Source: Chryseobacterium scophthalmum (lineage in GTDB: Bacteria > Bacteroidota > Bacteroidia > Flavobacteriales > Weeksellaceae). Taken from it: a DNA stretch of 64,000 nt. The notes beneath the pieces were generated by a model. It saw nothing but the letters and a program-made list of their open reading frames with translations, made no database searches and was not told the DNA's origin. Each line of letters opens with the position of its first letter. Positions within the stretch are counted from its first letter, which is position 1. The position numbers and the translations under genes are program-made. Location of the stretch: positions 248,001 through 312,000 of the forward strand of contig NZ_FSRQ01000003.1 in the NCBI RefSeq assembly GCF_900143185.1. Reading direction: 5' to 3'. This document shows, in pieces, positions 2,864 through 55,147 of the stretch.

Positions 2864-2891
2864 GATGGGTAACGGAAGTGGGACGTTGGAA
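2864..2891 (+). repeat. Heptad-periodic array, left-end (purine) type, 4 units
   Basis: Four consecutive 7-base units, all of the form nnnGGnn (GATGGGT, then AACGGAA, and so on), start 4 bases after the hydrolase stop codon. The GG dinucleotides recur exactly every 7 bases. The words match arrays near 7.6 and 34.5 kb. Confidence 0.65.
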
Positions 2892-2950
2892 GTTTACAAG
2901 ATTGAGAATAAACTTCAATACAATATGGTGAGAATTCAAGAGGTGATATG

Positions 2951-3007
2951 AATTCCCCTCCTTTGGAGGGGTGGCAAAAATTCAAAGAATTTTTGACGGG
3001 GTGGTTT
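2951..3007 (+). repeat. REP-like double-hairpin element
   Basis: Two perfect hairpins lie back to back: CCCCTCC-TTT-GGAGGGG (2955-2971) and CAAAAATTC-AAA-GAATTTTTG (2975-2995), followed by a GGGGTGG tail. The arrangement resembles dispersed intergenic repeats I associate with flavobacterial genomes. Only one copy is in this window, so repeat status is inferred. Confidence 0.55.
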
Positions 3008-3024
3008 AAAACGTTTCTTTTTCT

Positions 3025-3091
3025 TAGCCCCGATTGTAGTGAAAATCCTTTTTTGAAAAAAAAGATTGCAACGGAAAGCGGGAATTGCTTC
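3025..3091 (+). repeat. Second REP-like intergenic element
   Basis: It starts TAGCCCCGATT, has a CTTTTTT-GA-AAAAAAAG hairpin in the middle, and ends with a GCGGGAATTGCTTC stretch. This resembles a widespread flavobacterial intergenic repeat with a TAGCCC start and a GCGGGA end. With the preceding element it fills most of the 335-base gap between the hydrolase and rplS. Only a single copy is present here, so repeat status is inferred. Confidence 0.5.
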
Positions 3092-3141
3092 TAAAAACAA
3101 TCGACGTAGTCAAATAGCTCCTAAAAAATAGGCTTCAAAAT

Positions 3142-3175
3142 AAAAAGAGACTGCTAAAAATTAGCAGTCTCTTTT
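3142..3175. terminator. Bidirectional rho-independent terminator
   Basis: AAAAAGAGACTGCTAA and TTAGCAGTCTCTTTT form a long perfect stem with T runs on both strands. It lies between the convergent hydrolase and rplS genes and can serve both. Confidence 0.85.
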
Positions 3176-3195
3176 CGTATGTGTTGTTGTCTGAA

Positions 3196-3552
3196 TTATT
3201 TCTTCTTGTAAGCAGCGTCTTTAATTCTCGCTTTTTTACCTCTAAGATCTCTGAAGTAGTAGATTCTAGATCTTCTAACTCTACCTCTTCTGTCAACTTC
3301 GATTTTTTGAAGAGCAGGCATGTTGATCGGGAAAACTCTCTCTACACCTACATCACCACTCATTTTTCTGATTGTAAAAGTCTTTGTAGAACCTGTTCCT
3401 CTCAATTGGATAACAGTTCCTTTGAAGAACTGAGTTCTTGTTTTTTGACCTTCCTTAATCTCGTAATACACAGTAATTGTATCACCAGCTTTGAATTCAG
3501 GGAATTCTTTTTTTGTAATGTACTTGTCTTGTACGTACTTTAATAAATCCAT
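3196..3552 (-). CDS. rplS: 50S ribosomal protein L19
   Basis: A 118-residue protein with the full L19 signature: FKAGDTITVYYEIKEG, the FKGTVIQLRG strand, TFTIRKMS, GVERVFPIN, and the basic tail RGRVRRSRIYYFRDLRGKKARI. L19 sits at the 30S-50S interface of the ribosome. Length is normal. The gene has its own promoter (TTTG, 21 bases, TATATTTG) and a strong terminator, so it is probably a single-gene unit here, without the trmD-rimM neighbours common in other phyla. A 120-residue frame on the opposite strand is only a shadow. Confidence 0.98.
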   Translation of the reverse strand: MDLLKYVQDKYITKKEFPEFKAGDTITVYYEIKEGQKTRTQFFKGTVIQLRGTGSTKTFTIRKMSGDVGVERVFPINMPALQKIEVDRRGRVRRSRIYYFRDLRGKKARIKDAAYKKK

Positions 3553-3623
3553 TTTTGTAATAAAAATTTTTTGTCAAGCTAAACAACTTACACGGACTTC
3601 GTCAGAGGTTGAATAACAGGCTG

Positions 3624-3656
3624 CAAATATATGAAATGTTTTTTGAATTTGCCAAA
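3624..3656 (-). promoter_or_regulatory. rplS promoter (TTTG-N21-TATATTTG)
   Basis: On the minus strand TTTG (3653-3656) is followed after 21 bases by TATATTTG (3624-3631). Both boxes and the spacing fit the Bacteroidota sigma-A consensus. The leader to the rplS ATG is about 70 bases. Confidence 0.8.
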
Positions 3657-3734
3657 CAATTTTATCATAAGAAAATACATTTTTAAGGGTTCTTTTTTAT
3701 GAAAAAGTTAATGGTTGCTTATTATTAGGGTCAT

Positions 3735-3763
3735 TTTGAGTTTACAAGTGAAATTTATATTTG
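3735..3763 (+). promoter_or_regulatory. Promoter of the phosphoesterase gene (TTTG-N17-TATATTTG)
   Basis: TTTG (3735-3738), 17 bases, then TATATTTG (3756-3763). The -7 box overlaps a TTG at 3761 that would otherwise be a possible start codon, so translation must begin downstream, at the ATG at 3818. Confidence 0.8.
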
Positions 3764-3817
3764 CGGGATTTTAAAATTACAGTATTTCAAAACAATCCAA
3801 TTCTAAAAAAAACTATT

Positions 3818-6565
3818 ATGAGGCATTATTTGTTTTTCTTTTTTTTCGTCGTCCAGCTTGCACATGCTCAAGCTTTGTTTCCTTACTTGCAAAATCCGGC
3901 TCACAATTCTATGATTGTCAACTGGAAGACAAGTTCAGACAATGAAACAACGGTTCTTTACGGGAATTCTCCCACGAACCTTAATGTAACGGTAACAGGA
4001 ACTACCAATATTTTTTCTGATACAGGTTACAATAACAATTACTATTATCACACCGCAAAAATTACAAACTTACAACCCAACACAAAGTATTATTACAAAA
4101 TAAAAACGGGAGCTAATGAATCTGCAGTTTATAACTTCAGAACACTTCCTCTTCCGGGACAGCCTGTAACGATTGATGGAAAAATAAGATTCTTGATCAT
4201 GGGAGACAACCAGATCAAAGCAGAACCGCGATATGATTCTTTGAATTATAAAGCCTACAAAAAAATAAAAGAAAAGTTCGGGCTTACTTCAGATCCTTCA
4301 GATAATATCGCCTTGACTTTTATGGTAGGAGATCAGGTAGATGTGGGAACTTTAGATCATTATGAAAATGTTCACTTTAAAAAGAACAGAAAACTATCAC
4401 CATACCTTCCGATTCTTACAACAGTAGGAAATCATGAGACATACGGTACTTTAGGAATGAATTCTTACTATGCCCATTTTAATATTGATGAAATTAAATA
4501 CAAAAACATCAGCTCAGGTAACGAAAACTATTATGCTCAACAAGCTGGAAACGTACTTTTTGTAAGTTTAAGTTCTGAACATACAGGTTCTGCACAGCAA
4601 ACTTGGCTTCAGCAGATCTTAACTGAAGCAAATAATGATCCTACAGTTGACTGGATCATTTCATTAAGCCACAGACCTTATCAGGCAGAGCAGTATGTTG
4701 TTGATATTTCTACCTGGGTAAGGAACAATGCAGTGCCCCTTTTAGCAGGATCTGATAAATATTTGATGCATGTAGGAGCTCACCATCACCTTTATCATAG
4801 AGGACAATTAAAAAATACACCAAATTACCAGATTATTTCTGGTGGAACGGCTTGGGATCAATATTGGGGAATGTCGACAGAGCAGGATTTTGATGATGTA
4901 CAAAAAACATTAACCGATTGGACGTATCAAATCATTGAAGTTGATGTTGCGAATGGAAAAGTAGATATCGAAAGTTATTCTATTGGAGGGATCTATACAC
5001 AAAAAGATAATGTGTTGATCGACTCATTCCACCGATATAAAAATAAGCCTAAACCACAGAAGCCAGTAATTACAAATACATTTTCGACTCCTGTAACTTT
5101 ACCTTTAACATTAAACGGAAGTGCTTTTTCTTCTCCGGCAAACGAACTTTTAAATACGACTCAGTTTTTGGTAAGCAAAGCTGCTGATTTTTCGGTCATC
5201 GAAAAAGAATTTTACAGAGATTACGAGAACTGGTTCGGGAAAGAAGGTAACGGAAATCCTGATGTTACTAAAAACTTAAATGCAGGTGTTGATATCACAA
5301 AAGCAACTTTTGCAGCAAACTCTATCACCAACGGAGTGTATTATGTGAAAACCCGTTACAGAGACAGAAATATGGAGTGGAGTGATTGGAGTGATGTAAA
5401 ACAGTTTGAGATCACAGGAAGTGTAGTTTCAAATCCTAACCTTAGTTTAAATAAGACAGAATATTTGCAGAATGAAGCGATCATAGCAACTTACAATGAC
5501 GGGCCTGGAAATCAGCAGGATTGGGTAGGACTTTATAAAAAAGGTCAAAATCCTGCAACGACAATTTCTCAAGGTTTTGTTTATACCAACGGACAAACTT
5601 CAGGAGTAGCTACTTTTCCAAATGGTTTAGCAACTAAAGGGCAGTATTTTGCAGGCTTTTTTGCTAATAATGGATATACAGAAATTGCTCCCAGAAAAGA
5701 ATTTTATGTAGGACCAAAAGTTGTACTTCAGACAACTGCTGATGCATATCCGGTTGGAGGAACGGTTGTTGTTAATTTCTCCAATGGACCAAATTTAACA
5801 AAGGACTGGATCGGAATTTACAAAATGGGACAAGTTCCGGGACCAACTCCGGCATCAAAATGGAGTTACGTAACAACTGCTTCCGGAACTCTTAATTTTA
5901 CAGGTCTTCCAAAAGGATATTATTATGCTCAGTATTTTCTTGAAGACGGTTATACAACAGTAGGAGAAAAAGTTTTCTTCAAAGTAGGAGATATCGTTAC
6001 AGATCTTTGGATTAATAAACCGGTGTATACATTGGGTGAAAATATTACTGCTTCATGGACAGATTCTCCGGGAATTATCAAAGACTGGTTGGGAATTTAC
6101 CCTCAAAGTATTTCGGTTCCTGATGATCAATTCATTTCATATACTTATTTTGACGGTGTTGCTCAAGGTACAAAAACCATTACAGGAAATGTAAATGGAG
6201 TACCAACCACAGCAGGTAATTATTATATGGTGATGTTTACCAACGATTCTTACACAGAAGTTTCAAACAGAGTACAGTTTCAGGTTACCGCGGGAAGTTT
6301 AGGAACCGAAGAAACTAAAAATAAGACTGAGAAAAATGTAGTTATATATCCTAATCCTACAAAACCAGGTCAACCAACTTTTATTAAAAGTGATTATCCG
6401 ATTGAAAAGATTGAATTACTGTCTGCGACAGGTCAGCTCTTATATAAATCTGAAAACGTACAAAATCAGCGTTTTTCTTTAGTAAATGAGAATCTTCCAA
6501 AAGGCGTTTACTTTGTAAAAGTTCATACCAGAAAATTATTTACTTTAAAATTGATTATAGAATAA
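3818..6565 (+). CDS. T9SS-exported metallophosphoesterase with purple-acid-phosphatase-like N-domain and three DWxGxY repeats
   Basis: The protein has 915 residues from the ATG at 3818; a longer frame from TTG 3761 is ruled out because the promoter box covers that codon. Order: signal peptide ending AHAQ; an Ig/fibronectin-like domain (PYLQNPAHNSMIVNW, residues about 20-110) as in purple acid phosphatases; a calcineurin-like phosphoesterase domain with GDNQ, GDQVD, GNHE, SHRP and GAHHH metal-binding motifs (about 125-380); a linker domain; three tandem repeats of about 90 residues starting near 541, 635 and 728, each with a D-W-[IVL]-G-[IL]-Y motif; and a C-terminal T9SS sorting domain (VVIYPNPTKPG to the end). 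The likely role is release of phosphate from organic phosphates outside the cell. Substrate is unknown. Confidence 0.9.
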   Translation: MRHYLFFFFFVVQLAHAQALFPYLQNPAHNSMIVNWKTSSDNETTVLYGNSPTNLNVTVTGTTNIFSDTGYNNNYYYHTAKITNLQPNTKYYYKIKTGANESAVYNFRTLPLPGQPVTIDGKIRFLIMGDNQIKAEPRYDSLNYKAYKKIKEKFGLTSDPSDNIALTFMVGDQVDVGTLDHYENVHFKKNRKLSPYLPILTTVGNHETYGTLGMNSYYAHFNIDEIKYKNISSGNENYYAQQAGNVLFVSLSSEHTGSAQQTWLQQILTEANNDPTVDWIISLSHRPYQAEQYVVDISTWVRNNAVPLLAGSDKYLMHVGAHHHLYHRGQLKNTPNYQIISGGTAWDQYWGMSTEQDFDDVQKTLTDWTYQIIEVDVANGKVDIESYSIGGIYTQKDNVLIDSFHRYKNKPKPQKPVITNTFSTPVTLPLTLNGSAFSSPANELLNTTQFLVSKAADFSVIEKEFYRDYENWFGKEGNGNPDVTKNLNAGVDITKATFAANSITNGVYYVKTRYRDRNMEWSDWSDVKQFEITGSVVSNPNLSLNKTEYLQNEAIIATYNDGPGNQQDWVGLYKKGQNPATTISQGFVYTNGQTSGVATFPNGLATKGQYFAGFFANNGYTEIAPRKEFYVGPKVVLQTTADAYPVGGTVVVNFSNGPNLTKDWIGIYKMGQVPGPTPASKWSYVTTASGTLNFTGLPKGYYYAQYFLEDGYTTVGEKVFFKVGDIVTDLWINKPVYTLGENITASWTDSPGIIKDWLGIYPQSISVPDDQFISYTYFDGVAQGTKTITGNVNGVPTTAGNYYMVMFTNDSYTEVSNRVQFQVTAGSLGTEETKNKTEKNVVIYPNPTKPGQPTFIKSDYPIEKIELLSATGQLLYKSENVQNQRFSLVNENLPKGVYFVKVHTRKLFTLKLIIE

Positions 6566-6586
6566 AAATATTCACAACTTATTGAT

Positions 6587-6620
6587 AGATAGCGGAACTT
6601 GTTTCCGCTATTTTATTTTT
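6587..6620 (+). terminator. Rho-independent terminator
   Basis: ATAGCGGAA pairs with TTCCGCTAT, followed by TTTTATTTTT, just after the phosphoesterase stop. Confidence 0.85.
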
Positions 6621-6740
6621 AATAATAAAGTAAGCTAAGTTTAAACATGAAAATTTTTTAACGCTTTTCAAAATTCATTTGGAATACGGTAGATATGATA
6701 AAAATGTTTAAATTTAAAACGGAAAAAAATCAAATATTTC

Positions 6741-7442: not shown

Positions 7443-7462
7443 TTTTTTAAACAGTTTCTAAA

Positions 7463-7500
7463 AAATAATACCCCGAAATCAACTTTCGGGGTATTATTTT
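7463..7500. terminator. Strong rho-independent terminator
   Basis: AATAATACCCCGAAA and TTTCGGGGTATTATT pair perfectly (15 bp) around TCAAC, with A/T runs on both sides, so it could work in both directions between scoA and the leftward gene. Confidence 0.9.
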
Positions 7501-7520
7501 GTAATTATTTGTAATCCAAT

Positions 7521-7548: not shown

Positions 7549-7564
7549 TTTTCAATTTTGTGAA

Positions 7565-7592
7565 CTTCCATCACCCAACTTCCATCCTCTAC
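7565..7592 (+). repeat. Heptad-periodic array, right-end (pyrimidine) type
   Basis: On the + strand CTTCCAT, then CACCCAA, then CTTCCAT again follow in exact 7-base register, with one degenerate fourth unit. On the minus strand it reads as GATGGAAG-type words directly behind the stop codon (7589-7591) of the leftward gene. Confidence 0.6.
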
Positions 7593-8269
7593 AATCTATA
7601 TCCAACTCTCAATCCAAAACAAAAATTAAAAACATTTCCTGAACTTTCCTCCAAATTTAATTTTTGGAAAAGTGGTTTTAAGCCAGTTCCAATTCGGGTA
7701 TCTTTTATTTGGTCATATTCAATATCGCTGTTGTTAATTTTTCTATTCATCATTCCCAATCCTAAATAAGGTTCTAAAATGATTTTTTTTGATATTGAAA
7801 TTTGATTTCCGAAAGTAATATTAAAACCTTTTGCTGTTCTTTTGGTTTCAAAATTATCTGTATAGAACTTTGTTTCATCACTTTTTGGCGAAAAATCTAC
7901 GGAATTTGTACCTTCATTTTCTCTGTAAAACAATTGTAGTCCCACATAAAACTCATTTCGTTTAGACTCGATTCTTGAATTGAGCAATTTGAATAAATAA
8001 ACTCTTCCTTCAAGATTAGTTTTAAAACCTTTAGACTTTAATAATAGAGTATCTGCTTTGCTAAAATCATATAATTGATATCCAAATTCTGCGTTCACAC
8101 TGAAATATGGATTGATTTTTCTTTCGGCAGAAATTTGTAAAGTCGGATAAGAAACTACATCGACTAATTGCGTCGCGTTTAGTTTCAAAATCCAATTGCT
8201 TTCCTTTGATTCTTGTGCAAAGATCAAATTTGAGATTATCGGAATAAGAGCAAATAGAAGTTTTTTCAT
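7589..8269 (-). CDS. Predicted outer-membrane beta-barrel protein
   Basis: 226 residues with a signal peptide (MKKLLFALIPIISNLIFAQ). The remainder alternates amphipathic strands ending in aromatic residues and closes with FGLRVGYRL, typical of small outer-membrane barrels of the DUF3575 or porin-like kind in Bacteroidota. No catalytic motif is seen. It probably resides in the outer membrane; its function is unknown. The last codons and stop lie inside a heptad-periodic block. No TAnnTTTG box was found in the 163-base gap upstream, which holds only AT-rich sequence. A second, unrelated barrel of similar size is at 37468-38118. Confidence 0.7.
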   Translation of the reverse strand: MKKLLFALIPIISNLIFAQESKESNWILKLNATQLVDVVSYPTLQISAERKINPYFSVNAEFGYQLYDFSKADTLLLKSKGFKTNLEGRVYLFKLLNSRIESKRNEFYVGLQLFYRENEGTNSVDFSPKSDETKFYTDNFETKRTAKGFNITFGNQISISKKIILEPYLGLGMMNRKINNSDIEYDQIKDTRIGTGLKPLFQKLNLEESSGNVFNFCFGLRVGYRL

Positions 8270-12387: not shown

Positions 12388-14634
12388 ATGAAACGTTTTT
12401 TACTTCTATTTTCTATCATATTTTCGGGATTCTTCTTTTCCCAAACTCAATTGAATTTAATTCCTTACCCTCAAAAAGTTGAATTTCAAAAAGGAGAATT
12501 TAATATTAATAACCAAACTGTTGTAAAAGGAGTAGACAAATCTTTTGAAAACCAATTTTTTTTTAAATCTCTAAACAAGATTAAAGGTTTTGATTTATCA
12601 AAAAACAATCGAGGTGATGGTGATAACGTTATCTTTTTAAACCTAAAAAAAGAATTAAAGGACGATTACGAAATTCAAATAACATCAGATTTTATCTCTG
12701 TCACTGGAAAAGATAAGTCGGGATTATTTCATGGGATTCAAACCCTTCTTCAACTCATTCAAACTTCTGAAAATGGCAAAATACCTGCTTTAAAAATTGA
12801 AGATTCTCCAAAATTCGCTTGGCGCGGAATGCACCTAGATGTTTGCCGTCATTTCTTCACCGTTGAAGAGGTAAAACAGTACATTGATTATTTAGCGATG
12901 TACAAATTGAACACTTTTCATTGGCATTTAACGGATGACCAGGGTTGGAGAATTGAAATTAAAAAATATCCAAAGCTCACTCAAATTGGTTCAAAACGTA
13001 AAGAATCGATGATTGGAGCATATGTCGACGATACTTTCGACGGAAAACCTTACGGTCCATATTTTTATACACAAGATCAAATTAAAGAAGTTGTAAAATA
13101 TGCAACAGAAAGACACATCACAGTAGTTCCCGAAATAGAAATGCCGGGTCACGCTTTGGCTGCACTTTCGGCTTATCCAGAGTTGGCTTGTACAAAAGGT
13201 CCTTTTGAATCGGCTACAAAATGGGGTGTTTTTGATGATGTTTTCTGCCCGAAAGACGAAACTTTTACGTTTTTAGAAAATGTTTTAGATGAAGTTATCC
13301 AACTGTTTCCATCGCAATATATTCACATCGGTGGTGACGAATGTCCTAAAACGAGATGGAAAGAATGTGCACATTGTCAGGAATTAATTAAGAAAAATAA
13401 TTTGAAAGATGAACATGGTTTACAAAGTTATTTCATCCAGAGAATTGAAAAATATGTTAATTCTAAAGGACGAAAAATCATTGGTTGGGACGAAATTTTG
13501 GAAGGCGGATTGGCTCCAAATGCTGCTGTAATGAGTTGGACAGGTATTAAAGGCGGAGTTGAAGCTGCAAAAAGCAATCATTTTGCGGTGATGACACCGG
13601 GTTCTTATTGCTATTTTGATCATTATCAGGGTGATCCGCAAACCGAGCCAAATGCTTTTGGAGGATTTACACCTTTGGAAAAAGTGTATTCTTACAACCC
13701 GATTCCTTCTGAATTAAATGCAGAGCAGTCGAAATATATTTTGGGAGTTCAGGCTAATTTGTGGACGGAATATATTCTTGATTTTAAACAGGTTCAGTAT
13801 ATGATTTTCCCAAGATTGTTTGCGCTTTCTGAAGTCGGTTGGGGAAGTTCAGATCCAAAAAATTATAAAGAATTTGAAAACAGAGTAGTGGAGCATTTTA
13901 AAATTTTAGATAAAATGAACATCAACTATGCGAAAAGTATTTATAATATTGGCGGAAAAGTAATTCCTAGTAAAAATGGAGCTTCTTACGAGCTCTCAAC
14001 TTCACAAAATACAAACGGAATTAGATATACTATAGATGGAAGCAATCCAAAATCAAGTTCTCCAACCTATCAAAATCCAATTCCTGTATCTAAAAAAATG
14101 ACGGTAAAATCTGCTTACTTTGAAAATGGAGTGTTGAAAAGCGCTATTTCATCTCAAGATTTTACGCCTTCTAAAACAACCGGAAAAACAATTGTTTTAG
14201 AACACCAACCAAGCGAAAATTATTCTTTTGGCGGAGCTTTTACATTAGTTGACGGAATTGTTGGAAATGTAAAACAATTGGGAAAAACATGGCTTGGTTT
14301 TCAGGGAAAAGATGTTGTAGCAACGATTGATTTTGGTCAAAAAACGGATTTCACAGAGGTTTATTTCAATACTTTAGACAATAAGGGAAGCTGGATTCAC
14401 TTAGCAAAATCGGCTATAATTTCTATTTCTGATGATGGAAAAAACTTTAAAACCATTAAAGAAATTGGTAAGGATGAAATTCTTAAAGCCAAAGGGAAAA
14501 TAAATCTAAAAGTAGGAAATCAGAATTCAAAATTCATTAAAATTAAAATCGAAAATGCAGGAATAATTCCTGCCGGAAATCCTGGAGCAGATTCAAAAGC
14601 ATGGCTTTTTGTTGACGAAATCGGCGTAAACTAA
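12388..14634 (+). CDS. Exported GH20 beta-N-acetylhexosaminidase
   Basis: 748 residues: signal peptide (ending FFFSQ), a GH20 N-terminal alpha/beta domain (about 20-140), and a TIM-barrel catalytic domain (about 145-500) with FAWRGMHLDVCRHFF, FHWHLTDDQGWR, PEIEMPGHALAAL and IHIGGDECP. Asp317 and Glu318 in the last motif are the substrate-assisted catalytic pair. A chitobiase C-terminal-like segment and a galactose-binding-like (F5/8 C) domain complete the protein; no T9SS tail is seen. It removes terminal GlcNAc or GalNAc from glycans. It begins a run with glycosylasparaginase, CutC and beta-mannosidase that together suit N-glycan breakdown. A TATATTCG box lies 23 bases upstream of the ATG. 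Confidence 0.95.
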   Translation: MKRFLLLFSIIFSGFFFSQTQLNLIPYPQKVEFQKGEFNINNQTVVKGVDKSFENQFFFKSLNKIKGFDLSKNNRGDGDNVIFLNLKKELKDDYEIQITSDFISVTGKDKSGLFHGIQTLLQLIQTSENGKIPALKIEDSPKFAWRGMHLDVCRHFFTVEEVKQYIDYLAMYKLNTFHWHLTDDQGWRIEIKKYPKLTQIGSKRKESMIGAYVDDTFDGKPYGPYFYTQDQIKEVVKYATERHITVVPEIEMPGHALAALSAYPELACTKGPFESATKWGVFDDVFCPKDETFTFLENVLDEVIQLFPSQYIHIGGDECPKTRWKECAHCQELIKKNNLKDEHGLQSYFIQRIEKYVNSKGRKIIGWDEILEGGLAPNAAVMSWTGIKGGVEAAKSNHFAVMTPGSYCYFDHYQGDPQTEPNAFGGFTPLEKVYSYNPIPSELNAEQSKYILGVQANLWTEYILDFKQVQYMIFPRLFALSEVGWGSSDPKNYKEFENRVVEHFKILDKMNINYAKSIYNIGGKVIPSKNGASYELSTSQNTNGIRYTIDGSNPKSSSPTYQNPIPVSKKMTVKSAYFENGVLKSAISSQDFTPSKTTGKTIVLEHQPSENYSFGGAFTLVDGIVGNVKQLGKTWLGFQGKDVVATIDFGQKTDFTEVYFNTLDNKGSWIHLAKSAIISISDDGKNFKTIKEIGKDEILKAKGKINLKVGNQNSKFIKIKIENAGIIPAGNPGADSKAWLFVDEIGVN

Positions 14635-14636
14635 AT

Positions 14637-14664
14637 CCTAATTCCTAAAATCTAATACCTAGTA
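14637..14664 (+). repeat. Heptad-periodic array, right-end type, before a start codon
   Basis: Four units in exact 7-base register (first two CCTAATT and CCTAAAA) fill the 32-base gap between the hexosaminidase stop and the next ATG. The same two words form the array before gldF at 38828-38869. Confidence 0.65.
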
Positions 14665-14666
14665 AA

Positions 14667-34518: not shown

Positions 34519-34654
34519 GCTGGAAGATAGATGTTGGAAGCTGGGTGTTACTGAATTAATAAAATTATTTTTTGTCATCAATTGTGGATTTTCCTGATTT
34601 TGTAAAAATGTAAAAACAAGGACAGTCAAAAACATCTAACTTCCATCATCCAGC
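34519..34654 (+). repeat. Pair of inward-facing heptad arrays between convergent genes
   Basis: Left array 34519-34553 has five G-first heptads in strict register (GCTGGAA, GATAGAT first). Right array 34634-34654 reads on the minus strand as GCTGGAT, GATGGAA, then a GTTAGAT unit, so it is an inverted relative of the left one. The right array includes the last two codons and stop codon of the leftward gene. About 80 ordinary AT-rich bases separate them. Confidence 0.65.
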
Positions 34655-38210: not shown

Positions 38211-38765
38211 ATGCTTTATACCATCATCAAGGCGTTACACATTATTTTTATGGTCAGTTATTTTGCGGGAATTTTTTATCTCGTGAGGATTTTCGTGTAC
38301 TATAAAGATACCGATGCTTTTTCTGACGAAAAAAAGACAATTCTGAGAGAGCAATACACGTTTATGGCTCGAAGATTATGGAACATTATCACTGTTCCTG
38401 CAGGAGTTATCATGACCGTTTGTGGTTTGATTATGATCTTTTTGAATTCGGGATTAATGAAAATGCCATGGTTTCATTTAAAACTGACTTTCCTGATCGG
38501 ATTGGCAATTTACCATTACTGGTGCTGGAAAAAAGTGAAAAAATTAGTCGAGCTCAACGGAAATACTTTAGAAACAGCCAATTTAAAATTAAGACAAGCG
38601 AACGAAATCGCCACATTTATTTTATTTTTGGTAGTTTTTACCGTTATTTTAAAATATCAGGTTATTGAATATTGGTGGCAATTAATCTTAGGATTTTTCG
38701 TTCTGGTATTTTTAATCATGATGACGGTGAAGCTGGTGAATAAGAAAGGGAAAAGTAAAAAGTAA
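38211..38765 (+). CDS. hemJ: Protoporphyrinogen IX oxidase HemJ
   Basis: 184 residues, a membrane protein with four to five helices. The HemJ pattern is clear: ALHIIFMVSYFAGIFYLVRIFVYY with the conserved His10, then YTFMARRLWNIITVPAGVIMTVCG, and WFHLKLTFLIGLAIYHYWCW with the conserved Lys and His. HemJ oxidises protoporphyrinogen IX in haem synthesis in many bacteria without HemG or HemY. The C-terminal KKGKSKK and stop are encoded inside a heptad array (GTAAAAA units), so the basic tail may come from the repeat. Own promoter. Confidence 0.9.
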   Translation: MLYTIIKALHIIFMVSYFAGIFYLVRIFVYYKDTDAFSDEKKTILREQYTFMARRLWNIITVPAGVIMTVCGLIMIFLNSGLMKMPWFHLKLTFLIGLAIYHYWCWKKVKKLVELNGNTLETANLKLRQANEIATFILFLVVFTVILKYQVIEYWWQLILGFFVLVFLIMMTVKLVNKKGKSKK

Positions 38766-38869
38766 AAAGAGCCAAGTAAAAATTAATAAAGTTAATAGTG
38801 AATGGTCGATTGTGAGTTAATGTAACGCCAATTATCTAAAACCTAATTCCTATAACCTAAAACCTAAAT
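38755..38869 (+). repeat. Heptad arrays filling the hemJ-gldF gap
   Basis: From 38755 to 38818 nine units, eight of exactly 7 bases, all begin with G or a G-like position (GTAAAAA twice, then GAGCCAA and others; one unit has 8 bases). From 38828 to 38869 six units in register are of the CCTAAAA/CCTAATT type and end 5 bases before the gldF ATG. The left array overlaps the hemJ stop codon. Left is G-first, right is C-first. Confidence 0.7.
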
Positions 38870-38874: not shown

Positions 38875-39603
38875 ATGTTTGCAATTTTAAAAAAAGAACT
38901 TTGGAGTTATTTTGGCAACTGGAGCGCGTGGATCATCATTGCGGCATTCAGTCTGATAACGACTTTGTTTCTGTTTTTCTTCGAAAATGATTCTAATATT
39001 TTCGACATCGGAATGGCATCTTTACAGAGCTATTTCGTTTTGGTACCTTGGTTACTGATGTTTATTATTCCGGCGTTGTCGATGAAAACTTTTGCGGAAG
39101 AACAACAAACGGGAACTTTAAACTGGTTATTTTCTCAACCTTTGAAAGTTTCAGATTTGGTTTCAGGGAAATTTCTTTCTGTTTGGGTGGTCGGAATTTT
39201 ATGTCTGATTCCTTCTGTCATTTATTTCTATACGGTTTACGTTTTGGGAGTTCCTGAAGGAAATATTGATATGGGAATGACTTTCGGAAGCTATTTCGGT
39301 TTAATTATTTTGATTGCTGCTTTTTCGGGAGTTGGAATCTTGGCTTCATCGCTTTCTCAAAACCAGATCATGGCTTACCTTTTGGGAGTTTTCATGTGTT
39401 TCATCATGTATTTCGGAATCGAACAATTGGCAAGTTATAAATTGTTGGGCGGAGCAGATTTTATTTTGCAGAATGTAGGTTTTTATCAACATTTCTTAGG
39501 CTTTACAAGAGGTCTTATTGATTTTAAAGATGTTGCCTATTTTATTTTTATCATTGGTCTTACCTTGACATTGTCTAATCATTTTATCAATAAAAAGAAG
39601 TAA
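38875..39603 (+). CDS. gldF: Gliding motility ABC transporter permease GldF
   Basis: 242 residues with six hydrophobic segments. It starts MFAILKKELWSYFGNWSAW, contains FVLVPWLLMFIIPALSMKTFAEEQQTGTLNWLFSQPLKVSDLVSGKF, and ends HFINKKK, as in ABC-2 permeases of the GldF family. In Flavobacterium johnsoniae GldF, GldG and the ATPase GldA form an ABC complex needed for gliding. GldG follows after 4 bases. gldA is not in this window. Preceded by a heptad array. Confidence 0.93.
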   Translation: MFAILKKELWSYFGNWSAWIIIAAFSLITTLFLFFFENDSNIFDIGMASLQSYFVLVPWLLMFIIPALSMKTFAEEQQTGTLNWLFSQPLKVSDLVSGKFLSVWVVGILCLIPSVIYFYTVYVLGVPEGNIDMGMTFGSYFGLIILIAAFSGVGILASSLSQNQIMAYLLGVFMCFIMYFGIEQLASYKLLGGADFILQNVGFYQHFLGFTRGLIDFKDVAYFIFIIGLTLTLSNHFINKKK

Positions 39604-49940: not shown

Positions 49941-49944
49941 GAGG

Positions 49945-49952
49945 CAAATTTA
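49945..49952 (-). promoter_or_regulatory. -7 box TAAATTTG for the DUF4268 gene, leaderless arrangement
   Basis: On the minus strand the box is followed by CCTC and then the ATG at 49940. Transcription should begin at or next to the start codon. Confidence 0.65.
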
Positions 49953-49953
49953 G

Positions 49954-50062
49954 GTAAAAAGTGAAAAGAGCCAAGTAAAAAGTAGAAAGAAACAAATGAA
50001 AAAAAATGTGTAAAAAAAGTTTTTGGAGTCACCCTTTTTACTTTTAGCTTTTGCCTTGGCTC
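49954..50062 (+). repeat. Pair of inward-facing heptad arrays between divergent genes
   Basis: Left array 49954-49995 has six G-first heptads (GTAAAAA, GTGAAAA first). Right array 50028-50062 has five C-ending heptads (GTCACCC, TTTTTAC first), which read on the minus strand as GAGCCAA, GGCAAAA and so on. Both contain the GAGCCAA word, also found at 38769-38775. Confidence 0.7.
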
Positions 50063-50079
50063 TTCAATATTTTTTTTCC

Positions 50080-50087
50080 TATTTTTG
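50080..50087 (+). promoter_or_regulatory. -7 box TATTTTTG for the Rrf2 gene, leaderless arrangement
   Basis: The box ends 5 bases before ATG 50093. A frame starting at 50051 would begin upstream of this promoter and is rejected. Confidence 0.6.
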
Positions 50088-50092
50088 CTGTA

Positions 50093-50500
50093 ATGCTGTC
50101 AAAAAAATCTCAATATGCTTTTAAGGCGCTTTCATATCTTGTAGAAAAGAGAAATGAAGGCCCGATTCTTATTTCTGAAATTGCAGAAAACAAGAAAATT
50201 CCGTTGAAATTTCTTGAAAACATTTTGCTTGAACTAAAAAAAGCGGACATCCTCGATAGTAAAAAGGGAAAAGGGGGCGGATATTTTTTTAAAGAAAATC
50301 CTCAAAATGTAAATTTGGCAAAAATCATTCGTTTGGTCAATGGTCCTATTGCTATGCTTCCTTGTGTAAGTCTTAATTTTTATGAAAAATGTGCTGATTG
50401 TAACGAAGATCACTGCAGTTTGCACGATGTTTTAATTGAAGTAAGAGATGCTTCGCTTAAAATTTTAGAGAAAAAAACTCTTTTAGATTTAATAGATTAA
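50093..50500 (+). CDS. Rrf2 family transcriptional regulator
   Basis: 135 residues from ATG 50093. N-terminal winged helix (KKSQYAFKALSYLVEKRNEGPILISEIAENKKIPLKFLENILLELKKADILDSKKGKGGGYFF) is typical of Rrf2. Four cysteines (C91, C100, C103, C108) lie in PCVSLNFYEKCADCNEDHC and can hold an iron-sulfur cluster or sense sulfur status. It sits directly before cysH-cysD-cysN, so control of cysteine or sulfate assimilation is likely, as for CymR or IscR relatives. Confidence 0.9.
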   Translation: MLSKKSQYAFKALSYLVEKRNEGPILISEIAENKKIPLKFLENILLELKKADILDSKKGKGGGYFFKENPQNVNLAKIIRLVNGPIAMLPCVSLNFYEKCADCNEDHCSLHDVLIEVRDASLKILEKKTLLDLID

Positions 50501-50527
50501 TTAAATCATAATTTTAATTTTATAAGT

Positions 50528-50555
50528 CTACTTATTTGGTGGGATAATATTTTTG
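50528..50555 (+). promoter_or_regulatory. cysH promoter with a possible regulator site
   Basis: TATTTTTG (50548-50555) is 31 bases upstream of the cysH ATG. Just before it, CTACTTATTTGGTGG (50528-50542) has weak dyad symmetry (CTAC/GTGG) and could be the site of the Rrf2 regulator. The box is supported; the operator is a guess. Confidence 0.4.
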
Positions 50556-50586
50556 TTCGATATTTGCTGGTATCAAACAGAAAATT

Positions 50587-51279
50587 ATGTTTTCAAAAGA
50601 GGATATAGACACTTTGCAGCAGCTTACTTTGGAGGAAGGATTACAGTATATTTCCTCTAAATTTTCAGATGGGGTTGTTTTCTCAACCTCACTTGGTCAG
50701 GAGGATCAGGTTATCACAGATGCTATTTTCAAAAATAATTTACCTATAAAAGTTTTCACCTTAGATACAGGAAGACTTTTCTATGAGCATTACGATTTGC
50801 TTTCAAAAAATAATTCGCGCTATCAAAAGAAAACTGAAGTTTATTTTCCCGAAGCTTCTGACGTTGAAAAATATTTGATTGAAAAAGGAGTGAACGGTTT
50901 TTATTATTCTGTTGAAAACAGGAAAGAATGTTGCTTCATCCGAAAGGTAAAACCCTTAAATCGTGCCTTGGAAAATGCCAAAGTATGGATTACCGGTTTG
51001 CGCTCAGAACAATCTGAAAATCGTGAAAATATGCCGATCCTGGAGTGGGATGAAGAACGGAAATTATACAAATACAATCCTTTAATTAACTGGAATTATC
51101 AGGATGTTCTGGATTATTTAGAACAAAATAAAGTTCAGGAGTTGTCTTTACATAAAAAAGGTTTCATCAGTGTTGGTTGTCAACCTTGTACAAGAGCCAT
51201 CGAAGAAGGTGAAAATCCGAGAGCCGGAAGATGGTGGTGGGAAACTTCACAAAAAGAATGCGGTCTGCATTCACATTAA
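50587..51279 (+). CDS. cysH: Assimilatory adenylyl-sulfate (APS) reductase
   Basis: 230 residues, PAPS/APS reductase family. It carries the Cys pairs of the iron-sulfur type: CC at 115-116 in KECCFIRKVKPL and C198-Q-P-C201 in GCQPCTRAI, so APS is the likely substrate rather than PAPS. The catalytic Cys is in ECGLH near the C-terminus (C226). It also has FSTSLGQEDQVITDAI and FTLDTGRLFYEHY. It reduces activated sulfate to sulfite in the cytoplasm. cysD begins 25 bases after the stop. No APS kinase gene or domain is seen, which agrees with APS use. Confidence 0.95.
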   Translation: MFSKEDIDTLQQLTLEEGLQYISSKFSDGVVFSTSLGQEDQVITDAIFKNNLPIKVFTLDTGRLFYEHYDLLSKNNSRYQKKTEVYFPEASDVEKYLIEKGVNGFYYSVENRKECCFIRKVKPLNRALENAKVWITGLRSEQSENRENMPILEWDEERKLYKYNPLINWNYQDVLDYLEQNKVQELSLHKKGFISVGCQPCTRAIEEGENPRAGRWWWETSQKECGLHSH

Positions 51280-51304
51280 TTTTAATTTAATCTTTCAAAT
51301 AATA

Positions 51305-52213
51305 ATGAGTGACTACAAACTAAATTATCTCGAACAATTGGAAGCTGAAAGCATTTACATTATGCGTGAAATTGCGGCTCAGTTTGAAAAACCTGCTTTG
51401 CTTTTCAGTGGCGGAAAAGATTCAATCACTTTGGTTCATCTGGCGAAAAAGGCTTTTGCTCCGATGAAAATTCCTTTTCCTTTTGTGCATATCGATACGG
51501 GACACAATTTTCCGGAAGCATTGCAGTTCAGGGATTATTTTGCTGAAAGTCTTGGTGCAGAACTGATTGTACGAAAAGTAGAAGACACGATTAAAGCTAA
51601 AAAATTAACTGAACCAAAAGGAAAATTTGCTTCTAGAAACTGGTTACAAACCCATACTTTATTAGACACGATTGAAGAATTTCAATTTGATGCTTGTATT
51701 GGCGGAGCGAGAAGAGATGAGGAAAAAGCAAGAGCAAAGGAGAGATTTTTCTCTGTCCGTGATGAATTCGGACAATGGGATCCGAAATTACAGCGTCCTG
51801 AATTATGGAATATCTACAACGGAAGAATCAACAAAGGCGAAAATGTAAGAGTTTTCCCGATTTCAAACTGGACGGAACTTGATGTCTGGAATTATATCAA
51901 AAAAGAAAATATTCAGCTTCCATCGATTTATTTTGCTCACCATCGTGATGTGATTGAATATGAGGGTCAATTAATTGCGGTTTCAGATTTTATTCAAATC
52001 GATGAAAATGACAAGATTCAAAATAAAAAAGTGCGTTACAGAACCGTTGGAGATATGACTTGCACTGCTGCAGTTGAAAGTTCAGCTGAAACTTTGGATC
52101 AGGTTGTAAACGAAATTACCTCTTCCCGAATTTCCGAACGTGGCGAAACCCGAATCGATGATAAAGTAACGGAAGCCGCAATGGAAGACAGAAAAAAAGG
52201 AGGATACTTTTAG
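51305..52213 (+). CDS. cysD: Sulfate adenylyltransferase subunit 2
   Basis: 302 residues from ATG 51305; a longer frame from 51170 overlaps cysH in another frame and is rejected. Motifs: LLFSGGKDSITLVHLAKKAF (PP-loop), PFVHIDTGHNFPEAL, GGARRDEEKARAKERFFSVRDEFGQWDPK, WTELDVWNYIKKENIQLPSIYFAH, and RYRTVGDMTCTAAVESSA. With CysN it makes APS from sulfate and ATP. The stop is followed within 5 bases by a heptad array. Confidence 0.97.
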   Translation: MSDYKLNYLEQLEAESIYIMREIAAQFEKPALLFSGGKDSITLVHLAKKAFAPMKIPFPFVHIDTGHNFPEALQFRDYFAESLGAELIVRKVEDTIKAKKLTEPKGKFASRNWLQTHTLLDTIEEFQFDACIGGARRDEEKARAKERFFSVRDEFGQWDPKLQRPELWNIYNGRINKGENVRVFPISNWTELDVWNYIKKENIQLPSIYFAHHRDVIEYEGQLIAVSDFIQIDENDKIQNKKVRYRTVGDMTCTAAVESSAETLDQVVNEITSSRISERGETRIDDKVTEAAMEDRKKGGYF

Positions 52214-52217
52214 ATAG

Positions 52218-52345
52218 GTAATGAGCAATGAATAATAAGCAATGCCAAAAAACTGCATATTTTACTCTATGCTTATCATTAAGATATTCAAAAAATGAAC
52301 GGTGTAAAAAATTACCCATTACCAATTACTCATTATTAATAAAAT
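52218..52345 (+). repeat. Pair of heptad arrays in the cysD-cysN gap
   Basis: Left array 52218-52245 has four units (GTAATGA, GCAATGA first). Right array 52311-52345 has five units (ATTACCC, ATTACCA first) and ends 4 bases before the GTG start of cysN. The right array is an inverted relative of the left (GTAATGA against GGGTAAT). Confidence 0.7.
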
Positions 52346-52349
52346 AAAC

Positions 52350-53591
52350 GTGGACATATTAAGATTTATAACAGCAGGAAGTGTAGATGACGGCAAAAGC
52401 ACGCTAATCGGAAGACTTCTCTACGACAGCAAAAATATATTGATTGACCAGCTTGAAGCACTGGAAAAACAATCAAAAAATAAAAACGAAAATGGAGTAG
52501 ACCTTGCAATTCTGACAGACGGATTAAGAGCCGAAAGAGAACAGGGAATCACCATTGATGTAGCGTACCGATATTTTTCGACCCCGAAAAGAAAATTCAT
52601 TATTGCCGATGCACCGGGACATATTCAGTACACCAGAAATATGATTACGGGAGCTTCCAACTCTCAGTTGATCGTGATCTTAATTGATGCAAGACAAGGA
52701 GTAATTGAACAAACCAGAAGACATTCCATCATTGCTTCATTATTAAAAATGAAAAATGTGGTAGTTGCTATTAATAAAATGGATTTGGTAGATTATTCTG
52801 AAGAAGTTTTCAATGATATTAAAGCTCAATACGAATTGGTTGCTAAAAAACTGAAGCTGGAAAACGTCAATTATTTTCCGATTTCGGCTTTTAACGGCGA
52901 TAATATTGTTTCAAAATCTGAGAAAACGGATTGGTATGAAGGTTCAACGCTTTTAGATTTCTTAGAAAGTGTAGAAATTAATGAAAACCAGGAAAATGAA
53001 AATCCAAGATTTCAGGTACAGTATGTCATTCGTCCGCAAACTGATGAACTGCATGATTACAGAGGGTATGCTGGAGAAGTGATTTCAGGAATTTATCAGA
53101 AAGGAGATGAAATTACGGTACTTCCACAAAATATTCAGACCAAAATTTCAAAAATTGAAACCGGAGGAAAAGAAGTAGATTTTGTATTTACCAATCAGCC
53201 TGCCGTAATTCATATTGAAGATGATATCGACATCAGTCGTGGTGATTTTTTAGTAAAAACCAATCAACAGCCGAAAGTTGAAAATGAATTGGAAGCTGTA
53301 GTTTGCTGGCTCGACAAAAAAGAATTGAATGAGGGAAATAAGTATTTCATTCAGCATAAAAGCAAGACTTTGAAAGCCATCATCAAAGAAATTGAATATA
53401 AAATTGATGTTAATACTTTAGAACAAACTCCAATTATTGAAAGTGTAAAACTAAATGAAGTGGTAAAAGTAAGATTGAAAACAGCTTCGCCTTTGGTTTT
53501 TGACAGTTTTGAAGACAGCAAATCAACCGGAAATGCGATTCTTATTGATGAGACCAGCAATTCTACCGTTGGAGCGGTGATGATTTTATAA
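52350..53591 (+). CDS. cysN: Sulfate adenylyltransferase subunit 1 (GTPase)
   Basis: 413 residues from a GTG start at 52350, confirmed by the conserved beginning MDILRFITAGSVDDGKSTLIGRLLYD (G1 loop GSVDDGKST). G2 to G4 motifs follow: GITIDVAYR, DAPGH and NKMD, then two beta-barrel domains as in elongation factors. CysN hydrolyses GTP to drive CysD. No APS-kinase (CysC) domain is fused at the C-terminus. The start codon is directly behind a heptad array. Confidence 0.96.
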   Translation: MDILRFITAGSVDDGKSTLIGRLLYDSKNILIDQLEALEKQSKNKNENGVDLAILTDGLRAEREQGITIDVAYRYFSTPKRKFIIADAPGHIQYTRNMITGASNSQLIVILIDARQGVIEQTRRHSIIASLLKMKNVVVAINKMDLVDYSEEVFNDIKAQYELVAKKLKLENVNYFPISAFNGDNIVSKSEKTDWYEGSTLLDFLESVEINENQENENPRFQVQYVIRPQTDELHDYRGYAGEVISGIYQKGDEITVLPQNIQTKISKIETGGKEVDFVFTNQPAVIHIEDDIDISRGDFLVKTNQQPKVENELEAVVCWLDKKELNEGNKYFIQHKSKTLKAIIKEIEYKIDVNTLEQTPIIESVKLNEVVKVRLKTASPLVFDSFEDSKSTGNAILIDETSNSTVGAVMIL

Positions 53592-53617
53592 GTTTTTGAT
53601 TTAAAACACTTGATGAT

Positions 53618-54502
53618 ATGGTAATTTCACAAAAAATTCAGTTCAGGCTCAATGTACTTTTTATTACGGTTGCTGTTTTGGCAATCACATTTCTGTCACT
53701 GTACAGTTTAGGATATTTAGATGAACTTGAAATTATTCTTGCCAAAGACAATTACATTTTTTATTGGATGCTTTTGGTAGGAGTTTTTGCTGAAGTTGTC
53801 GCCGGATCAATGGGAATGGGATATGGCGTGATTTGCACCACAACACTTTTATTTCTGGGAATTCCTCCGCATGCAGTAAGTGCAAGTATTCATTCTGCTG
53901 AAAGTTTTACAACGGCAGCCGGAAGTATCAGTCACATTAAACTTAAAAATGTAAGTAAAAGTCTGGTGAAGAAACTGGCTATTCCTGCAATTATTGGAGC
54001 AATTATCGGAGCCGTTTCGCTGACTTATCTGGGCGAATATTATTCGAAAATTACAAAAACGGTGATTTCTTTCTACACTTTGTATCTTGGAATTCAGATT
54101 TTATCAAATGCTTTTAAACCTAAACAGAATAGAGCTTTAAAGAAAAAGACAAACCTTACCCGATTGGGAGTTATCGGTGGTTTCATCGATTCTTTTGCTG
54201 GTGGAGGATGGGGACCTTTGGTGACCGGAACTTTGATTAAGAATGCTTTTACCCCAAGATTTGCAGTGGGAAGCTCTACGGTTGCAAAATTTATCCTGAC
54301 TGTAACTGCTGCAGTGACTTTCTTTTTAACTTTAGGAATTCAGCACTGGAATATTATTTTAGGACTTTTAATTGGCGGAATTATTACTGCGCCATTTTCT
54401 GCAATGCTCACCGCAAAACTTCCTGTAAAAAATATGTTTATTATTATAGGAACTTTGGTCATTGTGATGAGCTCGATTACGATTTATAAATCTGTTTTTT
54501 AG
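53618..54502 (+). CDS. Sulfite exporter TauE/SafE family protein
   Basis: 294 residues, about eight membrane helices. The TauE/SafE pattern is clear: LVGVFAEVVAGSMGMGYGVICTTTLLFLGIPPHAVSASIHSAESFTTAAGSISH, then LGVIGGFIDSFAGGGWGPLVTGTLI and FAVGSSTVAKFILTVTAAVTF. It follows cysN by 26 bases, so it may move sulfite or another sulfur compound, possibly sulfate into the cell. A heptad array begins directly at the stop codon. Confidence 0.92.
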   Translation: MVISQKIQFRLNVLFITVAVLAITFLSLYSLGYLDELEIILAKDNYIFYWMLLVGVFAEVVAGSMGMGYGVICTTTLLFLGIPPHAVSASIHSAESFTTAAGSISHIKLKNVSKSLVKKLAIPAIIGAIIGAVSLTYLGEYYSKITKTVISFYTLYLGIQILSNAFKPKQNRALKKKTNLTRLGVIGGFIDSFAGGGWGPLVTGTLIKNAFTPRFAVGSSTVAKFILTVTAAVTFFLTLGIQHWNIILGLLIGGIITAPFSAMLTAKLPVKNMFIIIGTLVIVMSSITIYKSVF

Positions 54503-54537
54503 TTTCGGGATAAGAGATACGGGATGTGTGTTTCGGG
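54503..54537 (+). repeat. Heptad array directly behind a stop codon, 5 units
   Basis: TTTCGGG, ATAAGAG, then three further 7-base units, with TTTCGGG again as the fifth; the array begins at the base after the TAG of the TauE/SafE gene (54500-54502). Confidence 0.7.
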
Positions 54538-54662
54538 ATTCAGTTTGGAATGTTCTTTAAAGATGATTTTAGATAATAGAGATGTTTTTTGTGAAAAATT
54601 TAGCAGAATTTGAATTCAATTAAAATCAAAAATAATTTACATTTACAGCCTAAAAATAATAC

Positions 54663-54953
54663 ATGAATTTACATATCGTTGCTCTTTTCAGATTTAAAGA
54701 AAATAATTTGATGGAAGCTGTAGAACTGTTTCAGACCTTGGTAAGAGAGACCAGAAAAGAAGATGGATGTCTGCAATATGATTTAATTGAAGATAAAGAT
54801 AATAAAGGTACTTTTTTCCTGATTGAATTATGGGAAAGTGTAGAGCATCATAACCAACACAACGGAGCAGATCATCTAATGGATTTCAGAAAAAACGCAT
54901 CTAAAATACTTGAAGAAACAGCACAGGTTTATAAAGGGTTTAAGATTTATTAA
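54663..54953 (+). CDS. ABM-domain protein (YgiN-like putative quinol monooxygenase)
   Basis: 96 residues of the antibiotic biosynthesis monooxygenase (ABM) dimeric barrel: LHIVALFRFKENNLMEAVELFQTLVRETRKEDGCLQYDLIEDKDNKGTFFLIELWESVEHHNQHNGADHLMDF. It is the YgiN-like, stand-alone kind. Such proteins act on quinols or are used as small stress proteins; no specific substrate is seen. Cytoplasmic. A tandem repeat and a terminator follow. Confidence 0.88.
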   Translation: MNLHIVALFRFKENNLMEAVELFQTLVRETRKEDGCLQYDLIEDKDNKGTFFLIELWESVEHHNQHNGADHLMDFRKNASKILEETAQVYKGFKIY

Positions 54954-54957
54954 TTTT

Positions 54958-54992
54958 GCTAGAAGCTAGAAGCTAGAAGCTAGAAGCTAGAA
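54958..54992 (+). repeat. Perfect tandem repeat, five copies of GCTAGAA
   Basis: Five identical 7-base copies run without error, starting 4 bases after the ABM gene stop. It is the only perfect example of the heptad arrays seen elsewhere, and may be a recently expanded one. Confidence 0.9.
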
Positions 54993-54998
54993 AAGTCA

Positions 54999-55034
54999 AA
55001 AGGCAGTTTCATCATTCTTGAAACTGCCTTTTTA
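54999..55034 (+). terminator. Rho-independent terminator
   Basis: AAAGGCAGTTTC and GAAACTGCCTTT pair perfectly, followed by T residues. It is downstream of the tandem repeat and the ABM gene. Confidence 0.85.
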
Positions 55035-55064
55035 TTAGAAAAAATAGAAAGTATTAATTTTGTG

Positions 55065-55147
55065 GTGAACGGTCAATTAGCTTCGCTGTCAATGGTGAAT
55101 TTAAAGTTGACTATTGACAATTCACTGCGAAGCAAATTCACTTCTTT
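55065..55147 (+). repeat. Heptad-like inverted element with GCTTCGC
   Basis: GTGAACG and GTCAATT begin the left side; GTCAATG and GTGAATT follow after AGCTTCGCT. The right side has GACAATT and CACTGCGAAGC, then AAATTCA. The two sides are inverted relatives: left GCTTCGC pairs with right GCGAAGC. It fills most of the gap before the leftward T9SS gene. Confidence 0.55.

Follow-up and report, generated by a model that had tools for sequence, protein, structure and literature searches.

In the current study, we characterized a family of tandem arrays of 7-bp units (heptads), and in a minority of cases of 8-bp units (octads, e.g., AATGTAAC / ACATTGTT), in the intergenic spacers of Chryseobacterium scophthalmum, starting from a 64,000-nt stretch (the window) of its 4.47-Mb assembly. 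We think, with a probability of roughly 0.45, that these arrays are a fast-turning class of intergenic minisatellite, which would be generated by slippage in steps of 7-8 nt, by fold-back copying and by exchange between strains. A preliminary description of the window had reported mixed-word heptad arrays at intergenic ends, facing inward under a single strand rule. The observation itself is confirmed, and the interpretation given to it is partly supported. All 14 intervals in which arrays had been placed hold the quoted words exactly, and the self-match at lag 7 is the highest among lags 5-9 in every one, with shuffle P-values from <0.0002 to 0.038 that are flattering because the intervals had been picked beforehand. 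The P-value is ≤0.0006 at 14637, 38755, 38828, 49954, 52218, 52311, and 54958, and 0.01-0.04, weak when taken alone, at 2864, 7565, 50028, and 55065. The lag-7 match is complete at 54958 (28/28) and 0.66-0.71 at 14637, 38828, 49954, and 52311; only part of the 14 intervals reach the genome-wide segment threshold. A mixed-word family with recurring words is thus real; its register is less exact than had been claimed at 38755-38818, which falls out of register after four units, and some arrays have a period of eight.

The period was then scored in a sample comprising the window and 40 further stretches of 20 kb (864 kb, ~19% of the genome; 593 spacers with 105 kb of spacer DNA). Genes were called with a purpose-written, hexamer-based script rather than a standard caller, and intergenic sequence alone was scored, as the maximum-scoring segment per lag. 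Segments scoring at least 11 numbered 20 at lag 7, 14 at lag 8, 12 at lag 14, and 9 at lag 16, vs. 0-1 at every remaining lag in the range 4-15, so that the lag comparison proposed in the preliminary description, run here on samples, leaves the seven-base period standing. At a threshold of 9, lag 7 gave 42 segments vs. 12 in one Markov resample, and lag 8 gave 24 vs. 15. By mean match, lag 7 exceeded the average of lags 4-6 and 9-13 by 0.0100 (95% confidence interval 0.0061-0.0137) in the 544 spacers of this genome outside the window, and by 0.0250 (0.0176-0.0324) in 336 spacers of 20 congeners, which are not an independent sample because their stretches are orthologous to the window's array-rich end. 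The same measure gave no significant excess at lag 8 in either set (C. scophthalmum interval -0.0008 to 0.0066). Segment counts in the congeners were 21 at lag 7, 13 at lag 14, and 0-2 elsewhere, with no octad, and lag 7 was also on top in two further samples, g3 (5) and f3 (9). Of 98 heptad arrays, 68% have their near edge no more than 10 bp from a coding sequence, vs. 26% under uniform placement. The earlier placement of arrays at coding-sequence edges therefore holds in general, but not for 50028-50062, which stops ~30 bp short of the called start at 50093.

Purine-rich, G-first heptads had been said to stand at the left end of the spacer and their complements at the right end in all places, whatever the gene direction. 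For arrays no farther than 25 bp from a coding sequence, we scored the strand running inward from the nearest gene. In C. scophthalmum outside the window, which supplies the independent figure, G exceeded C on this strand in 27 of 27 heptad arrays (12:0 beside stops, 15:0 beside starts). All samples together gave 69 arrays with G>C, 3 with C>G, and 2 ties (35:2 beside stops, 34:1 beside starts), a pooled count with repeated sites, since 25 of its 74 heptad arrays come from the 20 congener stretches orthologous to the window. The 26 heptad arrays farther than 25 bp from a gene were kept apart; 15 had G>C, 9 C>G, and 2 were tied (8:2 in C. scophthalmum). When arrays were sorted by spacer end and ties omitted, the asymmetry proposed as a check was again found, with 51 G>C and 11 C>G at left ends and 10 and 54 at right ends. 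It is significant in ++, --, and +- spacers; divergent spacers yielded 5 arrays, too few to tell. The array at 14637 spans its whole 32-bp spacer and therefore offers no test of the left/right rule. The strand rule is thus a property of heptads adjoining genes, irrespective of gene direction where this can be tested, and does not extend to all arrays. Gene orientation was rejected as the cause of the polarity because stop-side and start-side heptads obey equally. In spacers with a single arm, the heptads beside starts are 25:1 in favor of inward G. Base composition may supply a partial background: in array-free spacers the sense strand is G-poor on the start side and not on the stop side, and 23 array-free cysD-cysN spacers of other genera have inward G>C in 9/20 at the left and 16/22 at the right. 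Other conceivable causes are promoter avoidance, R-loops, and loading of Rho on the C-rich strand before entry into a gene. Cyanobacteria are not known to have Rho; given that a matching strand rule is reported from Nostoc (see below), this would weigh against Rho loading.

The description of the arrays as inward-facing is correct as to polarity and incomplete as to anatomy, since many of them pair up as arms of a single inverted repeat. The ends of one spacer were complementary at a score of at least 13 in 41 of 498 spacers, vs. 8.3 expected from different spacers, a count that includes ordinary terminators. In 22 two-arm spacers of C. scophthalmum, the inverted arm match averaged 13.9 vs. 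7.0 for other pairings (0/5000 permutations; same-strand control, 6.1), the two without an inverted match being L135 15360 and the window spacer at 54954. Two-arm spacers hold one word family in inverted orientation, which would allow the strand to form a hairpin. The true partner was within the best five inverted matches in 20/22, which agrees with a quasi-palindrome, i.e., nearby imperfect inverted arms of presumably common origin. Four spacers chosen as strong have long-stem folds with z-scores of -6.6 (L135), -5.4 (L132), -4.8 (L126), and -4.5 (L016).

The proposed comparison of spacers in related strains was made with six relatives (G018, G001, G057, G059, G041, and G024; 85-94% alike at the cysD-cysN region), with uninterrupted runs counted by script and word families at orthologous spacers judged by eye. 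It revealed presence or absence of arrays as well as differences in unit number between related species. The longest run of TTATTAG has 7 units in C. scophthalmum, 8 in G018, 9 in G001, and 12 in G059, and G041 and G057 have six of ATATTAG. CCTAAAA reaches 10 units in C. scophthalmum, 6 in G018 and G059, and 4 in G001, with no run in G057, G041, or G024; CTATCAA reaches 6 in C. scophthalmum, 9 in G001, and 13 in G059. At the 54958 site, five GCTAGAA units in C. scophthalmum and G041 correspond to nine of GCTAGAT in G018 and four of GCTAATT in G059. Orthologous arrays therefore differ by whole 7-base units, and whole arrays are homogenized to a new unit.

Arrays, at times both arms together, also switch word family between related species while the flanking genes stay in place. 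The spacer 49941-50092 holds near-identical GTAAAAA/GAGCCAA arrays in C. scophthalmum and G059, the GCTGGAA type in both arms in G018, G001, and G057, and only a left array in G041. Since the near-identical arrays of C. scophthalmum and G059 are not found in G018 or G001, recombinational exchange is suggested. After ftsZ, the spacer has an octad in C. scophthalmum, G059, and G024, the AATTTGA type in G018 and G001, and the GCTTTAA/GCAGTAA type in G041 and G057; the serS spacer has three states, and the family also differs at purM-purN (gene names other than cysD and cysH are informal assignments, in part by eye). The purM-purN spacer of five relatives holds a different repeat, GAGC...CGGGGCTA. 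A stretch of ~77 bp containing the 54503 array is present in C. scophthalmum and G001, absent from G018, G057, G059, and G041, and was not seen in the diverged G024 spacer. Change is not universal: some array spacers keep their family (L019 11913 and L020 12077), and array-free spacers at 50501-50586, L020 13347, L017 8248, and L017 11510 align throughout where compared. At L017 12736-12815 and 10154-10333, an additional array is found in G001. Its tail is similar to that of the neighboring spacer, located ~2.5 kb away in C. scophthalmum; local copying is a possible source.

The spacer between cysD and the gene downstream, which we take to be cysN, was picked for testing since the window carries an array there. 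Among 60 congeners 58 gave a match, and our comparison covers 30 loci including that of C. scophthalmum; judged by eye, these spacers mostly have GTAATGA words, with TGATAA, GCAGTAA, and GCTGGAA types among them. In L027 and L043 the spacer has a heptad left arm (GTTGGAA), a similar middle, and a seemingly 6-periodic right arm (CTTAACCTCAGCCTC); L043 contains two copies of this composite. A scan for the CysN-like protein extended the comparison to 80 loci, nearly all labeled Bacteroidota, of which 75 have a cysD-like gene directly upstream. Their 349 spacers gave 28 segments at lag 7, 13 at lag 14, 9 at lag 8, and 1-4 at other lags, where a run of N in L198 may inflate each count and four Chryseobacterium loci are included. 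Near-gene heptads in this set had inward G>C in 34 arrays, C>G in 4, and one tie (octads, 9:1). Exclusion of Chryseobacterium left 44 or 42 cysD-cysN spacers, according to two different spacer definitions. In the former (45-300 bp, N-free), the lag-7 match was 0.379 vs. 0.27-0.30 at lags 4-6 and 8-13, and the inverted similarity of the ends was 8.83 vs. 6.09 (standard deviation 0.26), with a direct-repeat control that was itself slightly raised (6.66 vs. 6.02, standard deviation 0.21). In the latter, arrays occurred in 21/42 cysD-cysN spacers vs. 15/169 other spacers (Fisher P = 1.2e-8). Words vary by genus, for example, GAGATTT/ATATCTC in Pedobacter, TATCAGG/CCTCATA in Cesiribacter, ATTTTAG/AATCCGA in Mucilaginibacter, and AATGATT/TACCATT in Marinifilum. 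The array layout thus recurs at cysD-cysN across the Bacteroidota, with different words, and the pattern extends beyond flavobacteria. No second phylum-wide hotspot was found at the spacer upstream of ftsZ in the 30 loci covered, drawn from 61 matching genomes and half of them outside the class (arrays in 2/17 such spacers, one being that of C. scophthalmum, vs. 3/25 other spacers).

Taken as minisatellites, the arrays may originate as follows. Slippage with a step of 7-8 nt would give rise to the units, a second arm could then be formed as a fold-back copy of the first by template switching, as in quasi-palindrome mutation, and word families may be exchanged between strains by recombination. 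Arrays would last at places where the cell tolerates, or benefits from, a weak hairpin between cistrons. Their polarity might reflect a sense strand that is G-poor before the start codon, with the inverted pair imposing the complement at the opposite end. This combination of start-side composition and inverted pairing covers the paired heptad spacers. Several results weigh against the minisatellite reading. Single heptad arrays beside stops keep the polarity too (23:2, one tie), and the octads of C. scophthalmum have none (9:8, 3 ties); the combination covers neither. The fold-back step is read from anatomy, and AACAATGTA octads do not resemble their partner arm more than they resemble the rest of the family (ranks 3-5 of 22), which gives no sign of mutual correction between arms. 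Four window spacers fold weakly (z from -0.4 to -2.5). Some array-free spacers change as well (examples, not a tally, are L006 14753 and 16422 and L017 14460), so change is not confined to arrays. Lag 7 is not the leading period in the seven loci sampled from other Flavobacteriales families (2 segments vs. 4 at lag 8). A purely mutational origin leaves unexplained that arrays concentrate at the cysD-cysN spacer but not at the ftsZ spacer. Finally, the case is built on sequence comparison.

A broader reading, which we hold more tentatively than the minisatellite explanation, is that the arrays could be a sequence-agnostic element, whose layout is kept at particular spacers phylum-wide while its words turn over almost without limit, with selection or a dedicated mutational process acting on the architecture. 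Somewhat less likely still, in our judgment, is that the arrays are selected RNA hairpins, in which an intercistronic stem sets relative expression or protects or processes an operon mRNA such as that of cysDN, so that pairing, position, and strand composition count and the words are free. The recurrence of the cysD-cysN position with other words, the pairing of arms, the strong folds of the four picked spacers, and the adjacency of arrays to coding sequences all speak for such a role. Many arrays are single-armed at the threshold used, however, pairs are also found between convergent and divergent genes, the window folds are weak, and pairing alone does not demand a 7-base period.

Mobile palindromes resembling miniature inverted-repeat transposable elements (MITEs) are an improbable alternative, in which each word family would be a non-autonomous element placed by a transposase and single arrays would be halves. 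The octad spacers of C. scophthalmum, which align with one another at 75-85% over 74-90 bp and have matches in all six relatives in both orientations, speak for it, together with the presence or absence of the 54503 array and the extra array of G001. These last are the only two presence/absence cases, both judged by eye, and no target duplication was visible in this way at 54503. Nor is a fixed terminus apparent by eye; the arms face each other inverted, yet copies of one family differ in the words they contain and in the order of their units. Among 28 pairs of eight hand-picked octad elements, agreement in unit order exceeds that due to word content in only 8 at ≤0.05 and 4 at ≤0.01, so that simple copying of whole elements is only partly supported by this test. 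Separately, a cluster of 165 C. scophthalmum spacers is tied by dispersed repeats, which by length and identity are mostly not heptad arrays.

Repeats whose period is not divisible by three would place stop codons in every frame at the ends of genes, and translational punctuation of this kind was considered for 111 arrays (those >60 bp from an edge and out-group loci were left out). Inward-strand stops do exceed a column-order permutation (606 vs. 496, standard deviation 21), and among triplets TGA has the strongest enrichment (1.8-fold over letter shuffles). Its anagrams ATG, AGT, and GAT are enriched too (1.4-1.6-fold), however, the number of arrays that have a stop in each frame is not raised (68 vs. 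64, P = 0.22), and outward stops are not depleted. What defeats stop-codon selection as the main cause is the density of inward stops, which is 0.178 at the start-side heptad arms, where such stops are antisense, vs. 0.134 at the stop-side arms (P = 0.006); these densities largely refute it, and we regard it as very improbable. Chance low-complexity sequence of an AT-rich genome, to which the weakness of several single places might point, is refuted by the specificity of the period, the polarity, and the inverted pairing.

Within the window, several spacers contain an inverted pair or arrays on both sides. The convergent spacer at 34519 has a left arm of GCTGGAA type (34519-34553, plus strand; P = 0.006) and a right arm that overlaps the stop of the minus-strand gene at 34646 (34634-34654, minus strand; P = 0.003), with an inverted score of 13 and a fold z of -1.7. 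The left arm at 49954-49995 (plus strand), of the GTAAAAA/GAGCCAA family, has its inverted partner at 50028-50062 (minus strand; GAGCCAA/TTGGCTC, score 17.5, z -2.5, P = 0.010). In the cysD-cysN spacer, a GTAATGA-family left arm (52218-52245, plus strand) faces a right arm of ATTACCC type (52311-52345, minus strand; z -2.2), and stretches resembling the latter occur at many other loci of the genus. The array at 38755-38818 (plus strand; GTAAAAA and GAGCCAA) starts inside gene 38211-38765 and provides its stop codon; such arrays that supply the last codons and stop of a called gene are seen at window 38751-38769 and at L009 7885-7920. It is followed by a CCTAAAA-type right array (38828-38869, minus strand; spacer fold z -0.4) ahead of a gene at 38875, whose GldF-like call scores under the model cut-off.

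The remaining arrays are single or irregular. A left-type array lies just past the stop of a plus-strand gene (2864-2891, plus strand; P = 0.025, weak alone); the spacer that it opens also contains a Flavo-1 RNA (Rfam RF01705, 70.7 bits) at 3022-3089 on the plus strand, and an L19-Flavobacteria ribosomal protein leader (RF03130, 35.8 bits) is found at 3584-3611 on the minus strand. A right-type array overlaps the stop of the minus-strand gene 7589-8269 (7565-7592, minus strand; P = 0.026), and the array at 14631-14664, with no assignable side or strand, occupies the entire 32-bp spacer 14635-14666. On the plus strand, TTTCGGG and ATACGGG units form a left array at 54503-54537 (P = 0.004), and 54958-54992 consists of five perfect GCTAGAA units. 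The element at 55065-55147, without assigned strand, is irregular and inverted, with GTGAAT/GTCAAT words and GCTTCGC and GCGAAGC-like stretches within its two arms, and is weak at lag 7 (P = 0.038); orthologous spacers of five relatives hold similar elements.

These arrays matter because they occupy intercistronic spacers in core operons (cysDN, with purMNH and mur/fts identified by eye), where they vary in unit number and can switch word family between related species, and yet the heptads follow a strand rule similar to that reported in Xanthomonas and Nostoc. They make two questions testable, i.e., why heptamers dominate among bacterial intergenic repeats and why it is the G-rich strand that points away from the nearest gene into the spacer. 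If the sequence-agnostic reading is true, evolution would conserve an inverted 7-8-nt layout, with the G-rich strand of heptads inward from each gene edge, and not the words.

In the literature searched, no report turned up of mixed-word inverted heptad arrays, of family change at orthologous spacers, or of phylum-wide positional recurrence. Heptanucleotide repeats of cyanobacteria are named short tandemly repeated repetitive (STRR) sequences; they are tandem like the arrays described here, but have fixed words. The novelty that had been suggested for flavobacteria is limited in other respects. The available text of one report describes intergenic, G-quadruplex-forming heptamer repeats, GGGAATC in Xanthomonas and GGGGA(T/C)T in Nostoc, in which the G strand is the sense strand within 50 bp past a stop, or the antisense strand upstream of an open reading frame, whichever its direction (PMC4692102). 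It contains one example of an inverted pair, notes that close species differ in length and sequence, and mentions tandem heptanucleotides in the cyanobacterium Calothrix (PMC4692102). A strand rule matching ours had thus been reported before, and heptamer slippage had already been proposed (Mrazek 2007, as quoted in PMC4679880 and PMC4692102), both sources repeating the proposal that heptamers fit a polymerase footprint. None of the sampled C. scophthalmum arrays matches four runs of three G, the quadruplex pattern, and inward GGG occurs in 3/42 of its heptad arrays. The available text on TAACTGA direct repeats reports 7-bp intergenic arrays near coding sequences, mostly forward towards the start codon, with one indirect repeat mentioned, and extends them to five Bacteroidetes including E. 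anophelis, which has larger heptamer assemblages (PMC4679880); no TAACTGA doublet exists in our 864-kb sample. Borg tandem repeats are likewise fast-evolving and independently formed, but are described on archaeal extrachromosomal elements (PMC9879509). As far as its description extends, the BrickBuilt MITE of Porphyromonas gingivalis has a 23-nt unit and a fixed leader and tail and lies 49-591 nt from genes; it shares with our arrays the phylum Bacteroidota, the intergenic location, and tandem units enclosed by inverted ends, and differs from their 7-8-nt units adjoining coding sequences (PMC4596501). The TAACTGA system, as documented, is one fixed word, whereas inverted pairing as a rule and replacement of families are features of the Chryseobacterium arrays (PMC4679880). 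With the Xanthomonas and Nostoc heptamers as reported, our heptads share the 7-bp tandem period, the intergenic location, and the inward G strand, a rule that C. scophthalmum octads lack; in contrast to those heptamers, the arrays described here comprise many word families, octads, many inverted pairs, and family change at one site (PMC4692102).

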